A stretch of 64,000 nucleotides of DNA from NCBI RefSeq assembly GCF_029360705.1, contig NZ_JARKMX010000008.1, forward strand, positions 4,099,479 to 4,163,478, written 5' to 3'. The stretch is from Paraflavitalea pollutisoli. GTDB lineage: Bacteria > Bacteroidota > Bacteroidia > Chitinophagales > Chitinophagaceae. The notes beneath the pieces were generated by a model. It was not told where the DNA came from, made no database searches, and saw only the letters and a program-made list of their open reading frames with translations. The translations under genes were made by a program, and so were the position numbers. Shown piece by piece: positions 47,187 through 55,429 of the stretch (positions are counted from its first letter, which is position 1; every line of letters begins with the position of its first letter).

Positions 47187-47999
47187 ATGGAACATCTTTT
47201 TACGACGGATAGTATTATCAGTTTCGTTGTACTGGTTATCCTCGAAATCGTTTTGGGTATCGACAACGTGATCTTTGTAAGTATCATCATGAACCGCCTG
47301 CACACCAAGCAGGAAATGAACAAAGCCAGACGCTTCTGGATGATCAGCGGTATCATTGTGCGTAGCCTGTTGCTGATGGCACTCGGTTGGTTGCTGACAC
47401 AAAAAGGCAAATACATTATTCCCGAAAGCTGGTTTGGTAAAGGATTTGACCTCGCAAGCCTCGTGATGCTGGCCGGTGGATTATTCCTGATCTACAAAAC
47501 AGTCATGGAGATCCACCACAAGCTGGAAGGTGAAGACCCCAATGCCAACACACTCAACAAAAAGCCACTTAGCCTGGGTAAGGCCCTGGGGCAGATCGTG
47601 GTGATCGATGCCGTGTTTTCTTTCGACAGTATCATTACGGCTGGTGGTACTGCCAAACATGTGGAGATCATGATTGCTGCGGTCATCATTGCCATGATCC
47701 TCATGTTCCTGTTTAGCCCGGTGATCGCCAACTTCGTACAGGAACATCCGACCATTAAAATGCTCGCCCTGTCCTTTCTCGTCATGATTGGTCTCAGCCT
47801 GGTCATTGAAGGATGGAATGCAGAAAAGGCCCATGACCTGCACCTGAAGAACTATATCTACTTTGGTATGGCATTCTCCTTTGGCGTAGAATTGCTCAAC
47901 ATGACAATGCGAAAGAGGCAGGCCAAAAAGGTAGTAAAATTAAACTCCCCTACCCTGCAACAAGCAGATACCAGGAGAGATGACGACATGGCCCACTAA
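47187..47999 (+). CDS. TerC-family integral membrane protein
   Basis: Protein of 270 residues with about seven membrane helices. VVLVILEIVLGIDNVIFVSIIMNRL (about residues 12-36) and IVVIDAVFSFDSIITAGGT (about 137-155) are the two acidic motifs that mark the family and are thought to bind metal ions. Members are linked with tellurite resistance and with manganese export that helps metallation of exported proteins. The C-terminal tail is charged. It is transcribed alone and ends at a terminator shared with the 3' end of the convergent gene. Confidence 0.9.
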   Translation: MEHLFTTDSIISFVVLVILEIVLGIDNVIFVSIIMNRLHTKQEMNKARRFWMISGIIVRSLLLMALGWLLTQKGKYIIPESWFGKGFDLASLVMLAGGLFLIYKTVMEIHHKLEGEDPNANTLNKKPLSLGKALGQIVVIDAVFSFDSIITAGGTAKHVEIMIAAVIIAMILMFLFSPVIANFVQEHPTIKMLALSFLVMIGLSLVIEGWNAEKAHDLHLKNYIYFGMAFSFGVELLNMTMRKRQAKKVVKLNSPTLQQADTRRDDDMAH

Positions 48000-48014
48000 G
48001 CCACCTGCATAAAC

Positions 48015-49820
48015 TCACTCATCGGCCCGCGCAAGAAATTGGCGGGCCGCTTTTTTTACGGCCTCGCTGCTATTACTGGTTGCCACCTCCCTGAATACCG
48101 TCAACAAGGCAGGTTCCCGGTACGACCATTCAAAGAGCACCTGCAAAGCCTCCAACCGCACCGGTTCATTGGCCTTCTCCACCAATCGTAGCAAAGCTCC
48201 CTTAAGTATGTCATTACCCGTTCGCAGAAACAAGGCATTGAAGATATTGGTCAATATGGCCGGATGCTGCTCCGCTGTCAAAGCTTCAGCGTAGGTCGCA
48301 TCCACCAAAGGTTGCTGCACAAATCGTAAGGCATAATAAGCATAAGCCCTGACCGTGGTATCCGCATCGGTCAGTAAAGGAAGGATAAAAGGAAGCGCTA
48401 CCGCCGTTCCGCAGTTTCCCATTACACTCAACAGCAACATATCATCGCCCCGCGCCCGAAGTACCTTACCCAGGTAATCAGTCAGCGAGTCGGACCGTTT
48501 GGGATCATCCGTGCGTATAGAACCAGCGATATTCCCCAGGGCAAGCATGGAAGCTGCCACAATCGACTCATTATTGGCAGTATCGAAGGCTAGCGTCTCC
48601 AGCTGTTGCTGCAGCATGCGTTGCGCGTTCCTGACCAATCCCGACGAGGGAATGATCTTTTTAAGCTTTTCTGCCGAATCCCTGTTTAACAGGATAAAAT
48701 CCCGCAGTACCTGCTGCGCATAAGGGGTAGAGGCAGTAACGATACCCGTACGTAGGGTTTTGAAGGTAATCGAATTCACCGGCGCAGCATAAAATACCGC
48801 ACTGAAAAGCGTCAGCGAATCTTTGCTGGCGATAAAGCAGATCTTAACAGCTTCTGCCAGTTGATCCTGTCTGTTCACATCCTGCAACAATTCATTTTCC
48901 TTCAACAAGCGCAGCAATCCGGACACGGACATTCGTTGGCTGCGGACCAACTGTTGCTCCCGCAACTTTTGCTCCAACAGTCCCGGGTAATACAACGGTC
49001 GTCGATAGCCGGAGATATGACGTGCCTCTGACTGGTGACCATCGCTACCAGCCGTCAATAAAACATACTGGTATTTATTTGTCAAAACCGTAATGGTCTT
49101 GTGGTTGACCTTTGCTTTACGAATAAACTGCCCTTCGATTGACCGCACCTGTTCCTTGTCAAAACAATAACGTGTGCCAACCTGGTACTCGATACGCCTG
49201 GCCAACACACCTGATTGACCCACCGGAGGTATCCAGTCCAGCGAATCCAGTTGCAGCGCCTTGGCACAAGCGCCAGTGTCCGCCTTGGTGAAAATTGCCC
49301 GGACCGCTCCGTCCGACAATGTCATCACAGGTGGTTCTTCACCACGGGTTGAAGCAGGAAGGCTCCATTGAAAAGGCTCCAGCAACTGAATCACCACATG
49401 TTCGGCAGCCTCAGTAATTGCTCCCGGCAACCAGACACTGTCGATCAACCCCTGTCGCGTACGGCTGAAATAAAACCCCTTCCCCAACAATGATTGAATG
49501 GATTGCTGCACAGATAGCGGCAACGGAAAACGGCATTGATCGATCGAAAGAAAACACGCATACATATACTGTTTGGTGAGTGATCGCCCGACGCACTCCG
49601 TCCTCATAGTACCCAGCAGGTTACCGGTAAGACTGGTGTCTTGACCGCGCGTGCCCAGCGAAGCAAAATCGGTAGACACATGGGTCGAAAACCGTACCCG
49701 GTAAGTACCCCAATCATGTAGTGATGAAATCACTTCCCCTTGCGTCACATTGTTTTGCCGGGCACTCGCCACCTGCTGCAGGAACAGGCACATCATTGCT
49801 ATCGTCAATATGTTTTTCAT
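48015..49820 (-). CDS. Secreted HEAT-repeat protein with vitellogenin-like (large lipid transfer) layout
   Basis: Exported protein of about 601 residues; ATG 49820 gives a clean signal peptide (MKNILTIAMMCLFLQQVASA). The first 250 residues are beta-rich (TYRVRFSTHVSTDF, then GKGFYFSRTRQGLIDSVWLP, EPFQWSLPAS, YQVGTRYCF and the ITVLTNKYQYVLL strand). The rest is helical, with HEAT-like repeats such as ALGNIAGSI, MGNCGTAVALPFILPLLTDADTTVRAYAYYALR and the following pairs to the C-terminus. A beta module with 'F-F-xx-G-x-I-xx-V' strands followed by a HEAT superhelix resembles the N-terminal unit of vitellogenin, apolipoprotein B and MTP. That homology is inference, and a plain HEAT scaffold is the alternative. 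It is last in a three-gene operon. Confidence 0.55.
   Translation of the reverse strand: MKNILTIAMMCLFLQQVASARQNNVTQGEVISSLHDWGTYRVRFSTHVSTDFASLGTRGQDTSLTGNLLGTMRTECVGRSLTKQYMYACFLSIDQCRFPLPLSVQQSIQSLLGKGFYFSRTRQGLIDSVWLPGAITEAAEHVVIQLLEPFQWSLPASTRGEEPPVMTLSDGAVRAIFTKADTGACAKALQLDSLDWIPPVGQSGVLARRIEYQVGTRYCFDKEQVRSIEGQFIRKAKVNHKTITVLTNKYQYVLLTAGSDGHQSEARHISGYRRPLYYPGLLEQKLREQQLVRSQRMSVSGLLRLLKENELLQDVNRQDQLAEAVKICFIASKDSLTLFSAVFYAAPVNSITFKTLRTGIVTASTPYAQQVLRDFILLNRDSAEKLKKIIPSSGLVRNAQRMLQQQLETLAFDTANNESIVAASMLALGNIAGSIRTDDPKRSDSLTDYLGKVLRARGDDMLLLSVMGNCGTAVALPFILPLLTDADTTVRAYAYYALRFVQQPLVDATYAEALTAEQHPAILTNIFNALFLRTGNDILKGALLRLVEKANEPVRLEALQVLFEWSYREPALLTVFREVATSNSSEAVKKAARQFLARADE
48023..48057 (+). 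terminator. Intrinsic terminator of the terC gene, inside a convergent coding end
   Basis: CGGCCCGC (48023-48030) pairs with GCGGGCCG (48042-48049), followed by C and seven T residues. The same bases encode the last dozen residues of the leftward HEAT-repeat protein. Confidence 0.8.
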
Positions 49821-49890
49821 ACATCGCCTTTTGTAAAAACACTGCCCGGCCATCGCACAAGAGGATGACCGGGTACAGTGTGCCTTTCCT

Positions 49891-51357
49891 TTACCAGTTC
49901 AAAACCTTTGTATTATCGTCCTCGAGCAAGGTGCCGCGCAATTTAAACGCCGCCGGCACTTTGAAGATGTTCAGTCTTTCTGTTTTGATACAGGGAGCAC
50001 CACAGCTCCAGTTGCCAAAGTCAGGATACTTCACAAAGAAGTTTACCTCTCCTTTCAGTGCCTCGAGTGTGCTTTCGATATAAGCCTTATTGACCAGCTT
50101 CCACTTGTCGTCTTCATAGTCCAGTCCGGCGTTGCCACCAAAACCCACACCACCGGTCAGCAGCGTAACAATACCTTCGATGCCCCCCTCCAGAACATCA
50201 TCCAGGCCATACTTGGCTGCTACACGCAAACGTGCGCTGTAAGTGGGTCCGATATAGGCGTCGACATTGCTGCGGGTCATATCTGCCTTGTACATACAGC
50301 CTACTGCACCGGCAGTCGACACGTCAGTATTAAAGCCTACAGAGGGAATCCAGTCCATAAAATTGACCGTACTCATGGCAGGCGAGTTGAGCAACTCGGC
50401 GATATCCAGTTCTTCGGTAAACTCTTCATCAAGCGAGTTCCCGTTTATGGCCGAAGTACGGTTGAAGAGAGAACGGCCCAGCAGGTTCACAACTACCTTC
50501 CGCGACAGGTTTTTGCTAGTCTTGGCAGGTGCCACGAATTCGCCATTCATAGTGGCCAGCGGAATGGTCAGGTTGATGGGCAGTCCGACAGATACCTTCA
50601 TGGATGCACCAAAAGTGACCGCCACTTTGTACTCTGATTCAGTGGTCGAAAAAACATCTGTATTGTTAGCGAAGACTACGTTGGCCGGCGGCGCAGCATA
50701 GGCGCGGACCGTCAGGGCAGCTGTAGCGAGTTTGAATTCGGCATCGTCATTGTTCAGCTCGGCTTTGATCTTATCCGCCAGCGGCTTCAGGTAACGATCC
50801 ACATCATAGACCTTCTCGATCGTTTCAGGTTTCTTGTTCAGTTGCTCCTTCAGCTTGTTGATCGCCGCGAGGTTTTTACCATTGAGCAACGACGCCCGCG
50901 ACGCAGCGATATTACCCTTGTGAAAGAAAACTTTCGAGTTGTTGCTTTGTAGATTGCTAAGCGGTTTCAGGTTGCGGTTCATTTCCGTATTGATCGAGTT
51001 GATCTTTACCTCTTCTACCACAACTGGTTTCCGTACCAGGTTGCTGGCGGAAGGCTGAAAATTGCGCAGGGTGTAGCCTTTCTCCGACATTTCTGCTTCG
51101 AGTTTATTGACGCGTTTCAGGTACTCGTCGACAGAAATAGACTTACCCGATACCGTTTTGACCATATCGGTGGGCTTCACCACCCGTCCGCTGGTGGCCG
51201 ATACTTCCGCAACGGTAAAAGGTTTGTTGACCAATGTTTTTTTAGGTGTTACAACAGCCACAGACCGTTGATTCACCAGCACATCTTTCTTCAATTGCGC
51301 CTGTACGTTCAGCACAAACCCGCAGGACATAGCCAGCCCTAATAAGACTTTTTGCAT
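49891..51357 (-). CDS. Secreted protein of unknown function
   Basis: Exported protein of 488 residues with a signal peptide (MQKVLLGLAMSCGFVLNVQAQ). The first half is charged and helical, with Lys/Asn-rich segments (EYLKRVNKLEAEMSEKG, AINKLKEQLNKKPETIEKVYDVDRYLKPLADKIKAEL). The second half is beta-rich and glycine-containing (YKVAVTFGASMKVSVGLPINL, SARLRVAAKYGLDDVLEGGIEG, LTGGVGFGGNAGLDY) and ends with LKGEVNFFVKYPDFGNWSCGAPCIKT, where two Cys could form a disulfide. I recognise no family. It is the middle gene of the operon, 41 bases after the barrel gene and 70 bases before the start of the HEAT-repeat gene. Confidence 0.7.
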   Translation of the reverse strand: MQKVLLGLAMSCGFVLNVQAQLKKDVLVNQRSVAVVTPKKTLVNKPFTVAEVSATSGRVVKPTDMVKTVSGKSISVDEYLKRVNKLEAEMSEKGYTLRNFQPSASNLVRKPVVVEEVKINSINTEMNRNLKPLSNLQSNNSKVFFHKGNIAASRASLLNGKNLAAINKLKEQLNKKPETIEKVYDVDRYLKPLADKIKAELNNDDAEFKLATAALTVRAYAAPPANVVFANNTDVFSTTESEYKVAVTFGASMKVSVGLPINLTIPLATMNGEFVAPAKTSKNLSRKVVVNLLGRSLFNRTSAINGNSLDEEFTEELDIAELLNSPAMSTVNFMDWIPSVGFNTDVSTAGAVGCMYKADMTRSNVDAYIGPTYSARLRVAAKYGLDDVLEGGIEGIVTLLTGGVGFGGNAGLDYEDDKWKLVNKAYIESTLEALKGEVNFFVKYPDFGNWSCGAPCIKTERLNIFKVPAAFKLRGTLLEDDNTKVLNW

Positions 51358-51398
51358 ACTGTAATGTTTAAAGGTGATAATGATATATAGGTAGGAGA

Positions 51399-52628
51399 TT
51401 ATCGCATCATACAGGAGATCGACACAACAGGGGTAAACGTTTGCATTTTCCAGCGCTTGTCAAACAGGCAGCGCATGCCATAGTTAAGGATCAGGTTACG
51501 GCTCACCCGCCAATCGCCGCCAAAATTGATCGTATAAGGATGTACCGTGGTCCACTGTACTGAAGATTCTACGATGGACAGCTTATTGCTCGCAGGAGTG
51601 AAATTTTCCTCCAGGGCCTGCAAGGCGGTTTTGATGCCCTTGCGTTCATAAAAGAATTCTGCAAAAAAGGAATACAGCGAGCCACCATACCGCAGGTTAA
51701 GTCCTACTGACCAAAGGGTATTATCGGCTACCGCCTGCTGAGTAGTTTCCTCCCCCGAATTATCATCGCGCAATAAAAAGTCAACCTGCTCTTCGTACAC
51801 ACTGTTGCGTACCAGCATAGAGGCCAGCATGCGCTTGCCAATACCCATACCACCATTCAGCCAGAAGCCCCAGGCAGTATTCCGGTTCAGGCGTAAGGTG
51901 GATAAAGAACCCGCACTATCGGTCGCATAGGTATTGACTTTTCCGACAGCCACATCCAGCCAGGAGGCATTCCAGTTTTCCAACACAAATATTTTGGCTC
52001 GCTCATTGACCTCCGCATTGCGGCGGGAACCAAGCGTGAACAGTTGTTCTTCGGTATCCTGGATGCTTTTACGAATCGCCGGTTTGTCGAGTATATTCTG
52101 TGTACTATCGAGCTGGTGCTCGAGATCCTTTAGTTGTTTCTCCAGGTCTTTTTTTTCCGCATCAAATTTCTCAGCAATCCCCGCGTAGAGTTCGGTAGCC
52201 AATAGCGGGTCGGCCTGTTTGATGAGATTGATCTTGATGGCCCCACCAATGCGTCGGTCATTTTCTTCGTTCTGCACGGTACCAATGGAAAGATCCAAAG
52301 ACGCCAACTTGCGCATAAAACCGGAAGCCTGTTGATATTTCTCAAGCTTTTTGCGGTTGTAAAACAATTCCCAGAATGGCTGAGACTGAATGGCCAGGTT
52401 GGGACTCAGCTTCCAGGATTTAAAAGACCAGTCCACTTTAAAATCTTTGATGTCCGAAGTGCGCGTCACCTGCGATGGAGTTACGCCCATGAGATCGAAA
52501 ACCGGTGAGGCGGGTATACTCAATTCCTTGGGCGTCACGCGTTGTTCAGCACCAGATTCCTGTGCCCGCACAACAACAGTCGATAACAGCAGTAAAGCGA
52601 TGGGGAGAAATTGGGGGATCGGCTTCAT
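51399..52628 (-). CDS. Outer-membrane beta-barrel protein with a coiled-coil insert
   Basis: Exported protein of 409 residues: signal peptide (MKPIPQFLPIALLLLSTVVVRAQ), then SPVFDLMGVTPSQVTRTSDIKDFKVDW, a start I know from Bacteroidota outer-membrane proteins of unknown function. Amphipathic strands run on both sides of a coiled-coil segment (about residues 149-200, AEKKDLEKQLKDLEHQLDSTQNIL and on). Late strands (LNLRYGGSLYSFFAEFFYER, LILNYGMRCLFDKRW) and the closing VVSISCMMR fit a barrel. It is the first gene of the three-gene operon and has a full-consensus promoter five bases before its ATG. Confidence 0.65.
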   Translation of the reverse strand: MKPIPQFLPIALLLLSTVVVRAQESGAEQRVTPKELSIPASPVFDLMGVTPSQVTRTSDIKDFKVDWSFKSWKLSPNLAIQSQPFWELFYNRKKLEKYQQASGFMRKLASLDLSIGTVQNEENDRRIGGAIKINLIKQADPLLATELYAGIAEKFDAEKKDLEKQLKDLEHQLDSTQNILDKPAIRKSIQDTEEQLFTLGSRRNAEVNERAKIFVLENWNASWLDVAVGKVNTYATDSAGSLSTLRLNRNTAWGFWLNGGMGIGKRMLASMLVRNSVYEEQVDFLLRDDNSGEETTQQAVADNTLWSVGLNLRYGGSLYSFFAEFFYERKGIKTALQALEENFTPASNKLSIVESSVQWTTVHPYTINFGGDWRVSRNLILNYGMRCLFDKRWKMQTFTPVVSISCMMR

Positions 52629-52632
52629 GAAC

Positions 52633-52663
52633 CAAAACTACCGCCGGCAACACCCGGATTCAA
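52633..52663 (-). promoter_or_regulatory. Promoter of the three-gene outer-membrane operon
   Basis: Read on the minus strand: TTG (52663-52661), 20 bases, then TAGTTTTG (52640-52633), a full TAnnTTTG match, ending four bases before the ATG. The transcript would be leaderless or nearly so. Confidence 0.65.
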
Positions 52664-52762
52664 TACCTGACCATAGTGAATTACGCCCACGAAAAATACC
52701 TGAATGCCGGTAGGGACCACCACTGGCAAATTGATATATTGTGCTACTAATTTCGAGTCTGC

Positions 52763-54784
52763 ATGATCAAAACAGCTGCTTCTATTCTTGGGTGTTTGGT
52801 ACTCCTTCTCTATACCAAAACAGCCGTGGCACAATCCGGAGATCCTTATAAGGACAGCCTGCTACGCGTCGTGGCCCGCAGCCAGCCCGACACCCACTCA
52901 CTGAAGGCAGCGACCCTCTTGTACAAGCTCTATTTTAATGAAGGGGATTTCAAGAACTCTTTACAATATTGCCGGCAGGCATTGCAGTTTACCGAACGGC
53001 TGGGCATTCCGGAAAAACAGGCACGTATCACGTACAGCATCGGCTTGAATTACACCAACCAGAATATGTATGACAGCGCCCGGTACTACCTCGATAAATG
53101 TGTCACATTGCCCGGATCGATGAAAGACACCATGTTGTTGGTACAATGCAACAACACCCTCTCTATCTTAAGCAACTACCAGTCGGACCATAGCACAGCC
53201 ATCAGCTACCTGATGAAATCGGTCGAGTTGCTCGAAGCCGTTAAGTCTCCGGATCTAAAAGGGGTTATGGCGCAAACCTATATGAACCTGACCAACAACC
53301 TCATCGCTGAGCAGCAGTTGGAAAAAGGCATTGCGTATGGAAAGCGAGCGCTCGAGTTTACGGGTTATCCGGATGAACAGCGGCACCGCATATTGGTGCA
53401 CCTTGACCTGATGGACGCCTATATCAAACAGAATCAGGCCCGCGACGCGGGCCGGCACCTGGATACTGCAGTCCAGCTCAACCAGGTATTGAACAATGTG
53501 GTGATGGCCAACCTGGTCAACAACAACAAAGGCATCTACTTCGAGTACATCAACGACCTGCCTTCAGCGCTCAAAGCGTATAAATTGGCTTATCACCTGG
53601 CAGATAGTATGCAGCAGGACCTGGTGCGCGGCAATCCCGCCAACAATATTGCCCGGCTCCACTTCAAACTGGGTAATTACAAAGAAGCGGAACAGTTTGC
53701 ACACGCTGCCATTGGCGTCGGCACCAGAACACACCAGATGAAAATACTCGCCGATGCCTACAGCCTGCTGACCAACCTGTACGAAACGACCGGCGACTAC
53801 CGGAAAGCACTTAAAATGGCCTTGCTCAATAAACGGTTTGCCGACAGTGCGACCAACAGCGCTACCCAAAAAGTGACCCTATCACTCGAAGCAAAATACC
53901 AGCACCAGAAGAAGGAGAAAGAGATTGCAGAACTGAAAGCAGACGCGGCCGAAAACGAATTGCTGATCCTTAAGCGTAACCGGATCTTATTGATAGGCAG
54001 CCTCTGCGCAGCCATCCTGCTGTTGATCATCGGGTGGCTGTACAAGATCAGCAAACACAAACAGACCATCACAGAAAAAGAAAAGAAATTACAGCTCGAA
54101 CACATCAATTTCCTCGAAAGGCAGCAACAGGTAGTCTCTTTGCAAAGTATGCTCAACGGACAGGAAACAGAACGCACCCGCATCGCCAAAGACCTGCACG
54201 ATGGACTTGGCGGATTGTTCTCTACCGTAAAAATGAACTTCAGCGTGCTGCAATACGAGAACCCTACACTGAAAGAAAATCCCCTGTTCCAGAAAAGTTA
54301 TGAGATGGTCGATACCGCGTCGGTCGAATTAAGGCGCATCGCCCACAACATGATGCCCGAAGTGCTGATGAAGCTGGGACTGATACAGGCCCTTCAGGAT
54401 ATGTGTGCCGCGATCAGCAGCGGGCGCCTCTTACTCGTCACCTTGCAGGCTTATGGTATGGATAAGCGCCTCAACGGCTCCAGCGAGATCATGTTGTACC
54501 GGATCATCCAGGAACTGATCGCCAATATCATCAAGCATGCCCAGGCTACGGAAGCATTGATACAATTTAATAAGAATGGTAACCGGCTCACCATTACTGT
54601 AGAAGACAATGGCCGTGGCTTCAACATGATGGACGTAGATACCACCAAACACAGTGGCATGGAGAGTGTCAGAAACCGCGTCAATTACCTGAACGGGCAG
54701 ATCAATATCGATTCCCGCCGGGGAATCGGCACCACCGTACTGATGGAGTTTCTGATCAATGACGATGAACTATCTTTACCCTGA
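52763..54784 (+). CDS. Sensor histidine kinase with TPR repeats (HisKA_3, NarX/LytS-like)
   Basis: Membrane kinase of 673 residues. The signal peptide ends near VAQSGD (residue 24). Tetratricopeptide repeats fill about 35-370 (for example DFKNSLQYCRQALQF, QQLEKGIAYGKRALEF, NYKEAEQFAHAAIGVG). One membrane helix (about 413-433) is followed by a coiled coil. The phosphoacceptor is in RIAKDLHDGLGG (His about residue 479), the HisKA_3 type. The ATPase part reads ELIANIIKHAQATEA and VEDNGRGFNM. The response regulator begins ten bases downstream. It is divergent from the secreted three-gene operon across 134 bases, so that operon is a possible target. Confidence 0.9.
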   Translation: MIKTAASILGCLVLLLYTKTAVAQSGDPYKDSLLRVVARSQPDTHSLKAATLLYKLYFNEGDFKNSLQYCRQALQFTERLGIPEKQARITYSIGLNYTNQNMYDSARYYLDKCVTLPGSMKDTMLLVQCNNTLSILSNYQSDHSTAISYLMKSVELLEAVKSPDLKGVMAQTYMNLTNNLIAEQQLEKGIAYGKRALEFTGYPDEQRHRILVHLDLMDAYIKQNQARDAGRHLDTAVQLNQVLNNVVMANLVNNNKGIYFEYINDLPSALKAYKLAYHLADSMQQDLVRGNPANNIARLHFKLGNYKEAEQFAHAAIGVGTRTHQMKILADAYSLLTNLYETTGDYRKALKMALLNKRFADSATNSATQKVTLSLEAKYQHQKKEKEIAELKADAAENELLILKRNRILLIGSLCAAILLLIIGWLYKISKHKQTITEKEKKLQLEHINFLERQQQVVSLQSMLNGQETERTRIAKDLHDGLGGLFSTVKMNFSVLQYENPTLKENPLFQKSYEMVDTASVELRRIAHNMMPEVLMKLGLIQALQDMCAAISSGRLLLVTLQAYGMDKRLNGSSEIMLYRIIQELIANIIKHAQATEALIQFNKNGNRLTITVEDNGRGFNMMDVDTTKHSGMESVRNRVNYLNGQINIDSRRGIGTTVLMEFLINDDELSLP

Positions 54785-54793
54785 CTTATTGCT

Positions 54794-55429
54794 ATGATCA
54801 CCATCCTCATCATCGACGACCACCCGCTCGTGACAGACGGCATCAAAACCATGCTGCAGCACGAAGCTCATTTACAGGTTTGCAAAACGGCCCGCACAGG
54901 GCGGGAAGCGCTGGTATTTCTCGAGCAACAGCCCGTAGATGTGATATTGCTCGATATCAGCCTGCCCGACATCGACGGACTGGCACTCTGCCAGCAGATC
55001 CGCCTCACCAATAAAACAAGCCGCATCATTGGTGTTACCTCGGCCAACGACGCAGGTATCATCACGCAACTACTTCACCGTGGTGGCAATGGCTACCTGC
55101 TGAAGAATATGGAGCGCGAAGAACTGATCCATGCGATCAACCGCGTACTGGATGGACATGTATACCTGAGCAAAGAGGCCAATGAGAAAGTATTACAACA
55201 ATACCGTAGCCTGGATTCGGCCCTGCACCAGATGCCGGTTTTGACGAGAAGGGAAAAAGAGATACTGGTATTGCTGAGCGATGGCATGACGGGACCGCAG
55301 ATCGCCGAAAAACTATTCCTGAGCACCTATACCATCGAAACGCACCGCAAGAACCTGTTACAAAAATTCAGCGTCAACAATACAGCCCTGCTATTAAAGG
55401 CGGCCCGCGACTACCGGATTTTAAACTGA
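54794..55429 (+). CDS. NarL/FixJ-type response regulator
   Basis: Regulator of 211 residues that pairs with the kinase encoded just upstream. The receiver begins MITILIIDDHPLVTDGIKTML, the phosphoacceptor Asp is in VIVLLD-type VILLDISLPDIDG (about residue 54), and the domain ends GYLLKNMEREEL. The LuxR-type helix-turn-helix is LTRREKEILVLLSDGMTGPQIAEKLFLSTYTIETHRKNLLQKFSVNN (about 149-195). The spacing (ten bases) and the HisKA_3 partner make this a standard NarL-type system. Its binding sites cannot be named from the sequence. Confidence 0.9.
   Translation: MITILIIDDHPLVTDGIKTMLQHEAHLQVCKTARTGREALVFLEQQPVDVILLDISLPDIDGLALCQQIRLTNKTSRIIGVTSANDAGIITQLLHRGGNGYLLKNMEREELIHAINRVLDGHVYLSKEANEKVLQQYRSLDSALHQMPVLTRREKEILVLLSDGMTGPQIAEKLFLSTYTIETHRKNLLQKFSVNNTALLLKAARDYRILN

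Follow-up and report, generated by a model that had tools for sequence, protein, structure and literature searches.

A gene pair of Paraflavitalea pollutisoli whose predicted products may resemble an animal large lipid transfer protein divided over two chains

A 64,000-nucleotide stretch of the Paraflavitalea pollutisoli genome (Chitinophagaceae, Bacteroidota; contig NZ_JARKMX010000008.1, positions 4,099,479 to 4,163,478), in its full length referred to as the window, carries three leftward genes, the last two of which encode a 488-residue protein (the middle protein) and a 601-residue protein that recur together as a pair. We hypothesize, at what we judge to be an even chance, that the pair forms a secreted two-subunit complex for lipid binding or lipid transfer, which would amount to a large lipid transfer protein (LLTP) whose parts are encoded by two separate genes. 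Such a split LLTP is suggested by the structural models of both proteins, which retrieve MTP or other animal LLTPs as their best matches in Foldseek. To our knowledge the LLTPs, which supply egg yolk and blood lipoproteins with fat, have been treated as an animal superfamily, and in the open full-text literature, judged by titles and the starts of abstracts and with subscription papers and preprints outside that scope, no bacterial LLTP is described. Numbers beginning with G and L denote the genomes and loci compared.

The fold predicted for the 601-residue protein, hereafter the LLTP-like subunit (48015..49820, minus strand; start at the second ATG of the open reading frame, ORF), carries most of the argument. 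A signal-like stretch (residues 1-21) is followed by a predicted strand barrel (approximately 38-257) with a central helix, and then by a helical arc. In the AlphaFold2 model built from seven sequences (predicted local distance difference test, pLDDT, 77.3; predicted template modeling score, pTM, 0.52) strands occupy residues 39-130 and 165-256 on either side of a helix at 137-152, and helices fill 280-600, mostly at pLDDT >80; residues 16-35, 200-207 and 259-286 are of low quality. The beta-rich N-terminus and subsequent helices that the preliminary description of this DNA had read from the sequence were thus recovered in the predicted structure. Among 350,542 PDB chains, Foldseek ranked exclusively animal LLTPs at positions 1-7 (E 1.5e-14 to 1.9e-6), namely MTP (1.5e-14 and 1.8e-14), lipovitellin (7.9e-12), apoB100 (1.2e-10, 2.2e-8 and 1.9e-6) and bee vitellogenin (2.4e-10), and the title of the apoB chain at 1.9e-6 refers to a beta barrel. 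The proposed order of an LLTP N-terminal unit is borne out insofar as these four proteins outrank all other PDB chains; rank 8 was another kind of entry (E 5.5e-5, probability 0.54). LLTP barrels typically contain a central helix. In the model the N-terminal strands likewise appear to form a barrel around such a helix, and the helical arc is predicted to follow directly, as the horseshoe does in LLTPs. Barrel and helical subdomains are both ascribed to vitellogenin in PMC8727950. The modeled chain stops at the helical part and would hold none of the lipid-lining sheets; since these lie outside its chain, we do not file the LLTP-like subunit as a member of the LLTPs.

The middle protein (49891..51357, minus strand) could contribute such sheets, as had been proposed. 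Its best model of five nevertheless places MTP at ranks 1-3 in Foldseek (E 5.5e-4, 1.3e-3 and 2.4e-3) and lipovitellin at rank 7 (0.04), despite poor confidence. Many of the remaining matches, at E 0.015 and worse, are membrane proteins that form barrels or pores, porins among them, and a membrane barrel is a possible alternative for this protein; the MTP matches weakly suggest an LLTP-like sheet fold. Its description as half helical and half beta-rich was upheld for the C-terminal half, where strands of up to 27 residues are modeled and beta-amphipathicity gives z values of 1.4 to 5.0 across 10/10 members, while for the N-terminal half (z -1.4 to 1.5) the helices appear in low-confidence regions of the model only. 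The middle-family profile matched nothing among PDB sequences (best E 0.36), and neither the middle protein nor the 409-residue product of the first gene had a Pfam match above cut-off. A scan of all three window proteins against NCBIfam likewise gave none above cut-off.

Relatives are few. A single-sequence search with the gene for the LLTP-like subunit matched 2/59 genomes and a three-sequence profile 6/294 genomes of the family, the window's own genome included both times. A seven-sequence profile, run over 395 genomes of the phylum, matched six: the genome of the window, G443 (E 1.4e-41), G520 (3.4e-27) and three with short matches (9e-5 to 3e-4) that were left out of the count. Within the families of G443 and G520 only these genomes themselves were matched (1/120 and 1/8, respectively). 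No relative was found in a direct protein scan of genome contigs with the LLTP-like subunit, in a plasmid collection searched with one relative, or by phmmer with the G443 protein. We count 11 genes in 10 genomes as members: the window, two in G001 (same genus as the window), G066, G078, G163, G192, L019, G443, G520 and L029 (genome G027, as the coordinates match). The last assignment, a row of alignments A5 and A7, is provisional because its profile score of 26.5 bits is no better than the 32.7 and 25.2 bits that two other HEAT proteins reach against the later family profile, and it is retained mainly because a clear middle gene immediately precedes it.

In 10/10 firm loci and in L029, the gene immediately upstream of the one for the LLTP-like subunit is the middle gene. 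As the ORFs were called, the gap between the two is <=32 bases in 9/11 cases (one of them an overlap), 70 bases in the window and 197 in L019. Conversely, the middle profile matched 9/244 genomes of the family, six of them strongly, and each of these six matches adjoins an LLTP-like gene (that of G027 provisional). A weak match in G087 (L105) is protease-like by sequence and was taken as chance. One copy of the pair in G001 is truncated by a contig end; the two copies there (L005, L006) are diverged, lie near two contig ends and possibly represent a tandem duplication. Around G443 and G520 the first gene was not matched among the ORFs of 19-kb stretches surrounding the pair. Consequently it is the pair that is conserved as a unit, not the trio put forward in the preliminary description, and we assign the first gene to a wider operon.

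Our interpretation should be treated with some caution, since several results speak against it. The TM-score of the LLTP-like model with MTP is low (0.40, with a root-mean-square deviation of 13.8), so that the relative placement of barrel and horseshoe is not fixed, and beta-amphipathicity in the strand part is unclear (z -0.6 to 2.0 across the 11 members). The middle-protein model has a pLDDT of only 47.7, its Foldseek match leaves the matched part of MTP unspecified, and none of the 7 middle proteins scanned contains a Pfam family at cut-off. Moreover, G111 and G173 carry distant, longer relatives of the middle protein (E 4e-9 and 6.5e-10; L103:7957-9846 and L104:8694-10700) with no LLTP-like neighbor in the stretch, and the operons of the window, L019 and L029 contain no lipase of the kind found beside the pair in some relatives (the window genome was not searched elsewhere). 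On the sequence level, the window protein reaches 20.8 bits against Vitellogenin_N (PF01347; cut-off 24), aligning residues 292-499 with profile positions 296-521, and 7/11 members in all fail this cut-off, with L002 at 10.8 bits and no match given for L006, L015, L019, L029 and L077. The 4/11 that pass are the G443 relative, at 46.7 bits over residues 116-533 and positions 76-541 of the 590 in the profile, and three relatives from the window's own family (24.5, 29.7 and 24.7 bits). When Vitellogenin_N served as the search key across the phylum, 10/395 genomes matched, six over the cut-off, and five of these six matches are HEAT proteins of other kinds, one of them aminopeptidase-like. Of all ten, the window and G443 hold members, L087-L092 are other HEAT-repeat proteins, and G440 and G444 lay outside what was read; in 14 control genomes the profile had no match. 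Because other HEAT proteins match too, a Vitellogenin_N match alone is weak proof, and we rejected it as sole evidence. The scores of the unrelated kinds in L087-L092 reach about 28 bits, and annotation of bacterial proteins from this profile alone is therefore unsafe. The LLTP claim stands more on the predicted fold than on sequence.

These profile results would also fit an ordinary HEAT-repeat scaffold joined to an unrelated strand domain, the LLTP likeness being convergent or an artefact of prediction. The LLTP-like subunit scores 30 bits against HEAT_2 (PF13646; cut-off 27.7), and the family profile, besides matching the two other HEAT proteins mentioned above, finds among PDB sequences no LLTP, only designed HEAT-like (alphaRep-type) repeats and chance matches. 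In addition, the Foldseek ranking stands without a folded plain HEAT protein as control. However, helical-repeat proteins enter that ranking only from E 1.6e-4, the first of them spanning 269-343 columns as against 647 for MTP at 1.5e-14, and even the apoB beta-barrel chain precedes them. A strand barrel is predicted ahead of the repeats, and the separate model of the neighboring middle protein also ranks MTP first. Structure prediction did not return a HEAT scaffold devoid of a lipovitellin-type barrel, the outcome that had been named beforehand as speaking against an LLTP, and we regard the scaffold explanation as very unlikely.

According to the split-LLTP hypothesis, the two genes would divide between them what animals build as a single chain. 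The LLTP-like subunit would correspond to the LLTP N-terminal module, in which a barrel enclosing a central helix leads into a helical horseshoe, and the long strands of the middle protein, hydrophobic on one side, would close a lipid cavity against the horseshoe. Judged by sequence, each of the three window proteins begins with a hydrophobic, signal-like N-terminus, in agreement with their earlier description as secreted, and because of these N-termini the pair is probably exported over the inner membrane; at the cell surface or within the periplasm it may then bind or move lipid, in whichever direction. In the LLTP-like protein of G443 the hydrophobic stretch is followed by a lipobox-like cysteine, as read from the sequence. 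A role in lipid binding is suggested by the predicted fold together with the lipase neighbors; in some relatives the lipase of the same operon could supply the pair with lipolysis products, and the first-gene product might serve as docking or exit point.

Constant pairing would also be expected if the LLTP-like subunit were a dedicated periplasmic chaperone of the strand-rich middle protein and carried no lipid itself. MTP assists apoB, the middle gene is paired in every firm locus, and the long amphipathic strands of its product would require shielding. In animal LLTPs, however, the same N-terminal module contributes to the lipid cavity, and we consider a chaperone without lipid to be quite unlikely.

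The first gene (51399..52628, minus strand) encodes the 409-residue putative outer-membrane protein with a coiled-coil-like stretch. A charged, heptad-like segment is visible near residues 150-210, and this part of the earlier description, an outer-membrane barrel with a coiled coil, can be kept; the barrel itself found little backing, as neither Pfam nor NCBIfam gave a match above cut-off and all 6 members scored show weak beta-amphipathicity (z 0.6 to 1.7). The gene occurs in 28/294 genomes of the family, in 23 of them at E <1e-40, and the pair is found in 7 of these 23 (one provisional). With the first gene as bait we compared 25 named loci (L016-L040), from Chitinophagaceae and one Pedobacter, using our own profiles and Pfam. 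Class-3 lipase genes are present in 12 of these loci; seven carry a cytolysin-like gene and six the pair, L029 being provisional, and some of the other loci are cut or unclear. The first gene stands at the start of a wider operon of Chitinophagaceae in which the cargo can be exchanged between lipases, cytolysin-like proteins, the pair and others, and this variable-cargo operon often lies at a similar chromosomal site. The weakly matching 238-residue protein of L032 was left out of the lipase count, and L036 has a GDSL-lipase-like protein under the cut-off. Six of the seven cytolysin-like proteins exceed the PF01289 cut-off; the seventh, in L024, has no Pfam match and was included for its homology to the L032 protein (44% identity). 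In L023 (11218-12432) and L039 (11237-12448) the gene right after the first one encodes a secreted-looking protein of 403-404 residues for which no Pfam family exceeded its cut-off, and the cargo of L026 is alike in length and start. Where first gene and pair occur in one genome, a Lipase_3 gene stands between them in 4/8: L012 (67.5 bits), L013 (71.9) and L015 (58.6), at a cut-off of 22, and L014 by our own profile. In G001 an alpha/beta hydrolase under the cut-off takes this position.

The exchange of cargo raises the possibility that the pair is a membrane-attacking weapon which replaces the cytolysin-like protein and acts on other cells by disrupting their membranes or extracting lipid from them. 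Cytolysin-like genes and the pair follow the same first gene but never together (0/25 loci), and a lipase accompanies either cargo (4/7 cytolysin-like and 3/6 pair loci). Moreover, according to PMC11169675, other bacteria are killed by Bacteroidota cytolysin-like proteins, and a porin lies downstream in one operon of this kind. On the other hand, such exclusion would arise by chance with a probability of about 0.10 (our own arithmetic), the pair occurs outside any first-gene operon in G443 and G520, and a middle family related to cytolysins was rejected when profile comparison with the cytolysin-like family gave a probability of 1.5%. We therefore view a weapon as unlikely. In the open literature on Chitinophagaceae, cytolysin, lipase and predation, nothing relevant appeared among the matches listed.

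Within the window the three genes are arranged as first described, with intergenic gaps of 41 and 70 bases (our own arithmetic). The single promoter assumed for them was not recovered: a scan of 47900-52850 for sigma-70-type promoters gave 8 sites against 5.4 expected, none of them in 52629-52850, and a Bacteroidota-type pattern matched 3 times in the window against 1.9 expected, never near the operon. Divergent from the operon lie genes named from their sequence, without family scans, as a sensor kinase (52763..54784, plus strand) and, after it, a response regulator (54794..55429, plus strand). A similar kinase gene adjoins the operon in L006, L012, L013 and L014, and a response-regulator-like gene is also present in L006. 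Recurring flanks, named in the same way, include kinase-, regulator-, rsmE-, thiolase-, DHODH- and TerC-like genes, and a dnaB-like ORF lies upstream in 9/25 first-gene loci as listed, plus the window.

If the hypothesis holds, a split bacterial LLTP would offer a small, genetically simple model of lipoprotein assembly, would bear on the origin of animal LLTPs, and would join Lol, Mla and Lpt as a further type of lipid carrier in the envelope of Gram-negative bacteria. One could go further and regard the pair as the unfused bacterial counterpart of MTP, vitellogenin and apoB by common ancestry, the LLTPs having arisen from a bacterial two-subunit lipid carrier with a LolA-like barrel whose parts were fused later; this extension is conceivable but doubtful. 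The analysis also brings to attention a Chitinophagaceae operon with exchangeable, membrane-active cargo.

Compared with known systems, the pair shares a HEAT_2 match in its helical part with bacterial HEAT-repeat proteins, whereas the HEAT proteins of L087-L092 have other architectures and no match to the middle family nearby. Sister operons share the first gene and carry PF01289 proteins, like the cholesterol-dependent cytolysin-like systems of Bacteroidota (PMC11169675); unlike those, neither protein of the pair matches PF01289 or our cytolysin-like profile. With animal LLTPs (MTP, vitellogenin/lipovitellin, apoB) the pair has in common a predicted barrel with a central helix, a subsequent horseshoe and the top Foldseek matches of both genes, but it is bacterial, is encoded by two genes, has a sheet part without a family match and a window protein under the Vitellogenin_N cut-off, and would bind lipid only by analogy of fold and neighborhood. 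Of the LolA/LolB carriers, LolA3 of Porphyromonas gingivalis is found at rank 17 for the LLTP-like model (E 4.2e-4), although the match is partial (TMq 0.15) and Lol proteins lack a helical horseshoe. LolA consists of 11 strands and a central helix (PMC2954207). Given the rank-17 match, a fold common to bacterial lipoprotein carriers and the LLTP barrel is conceivable.

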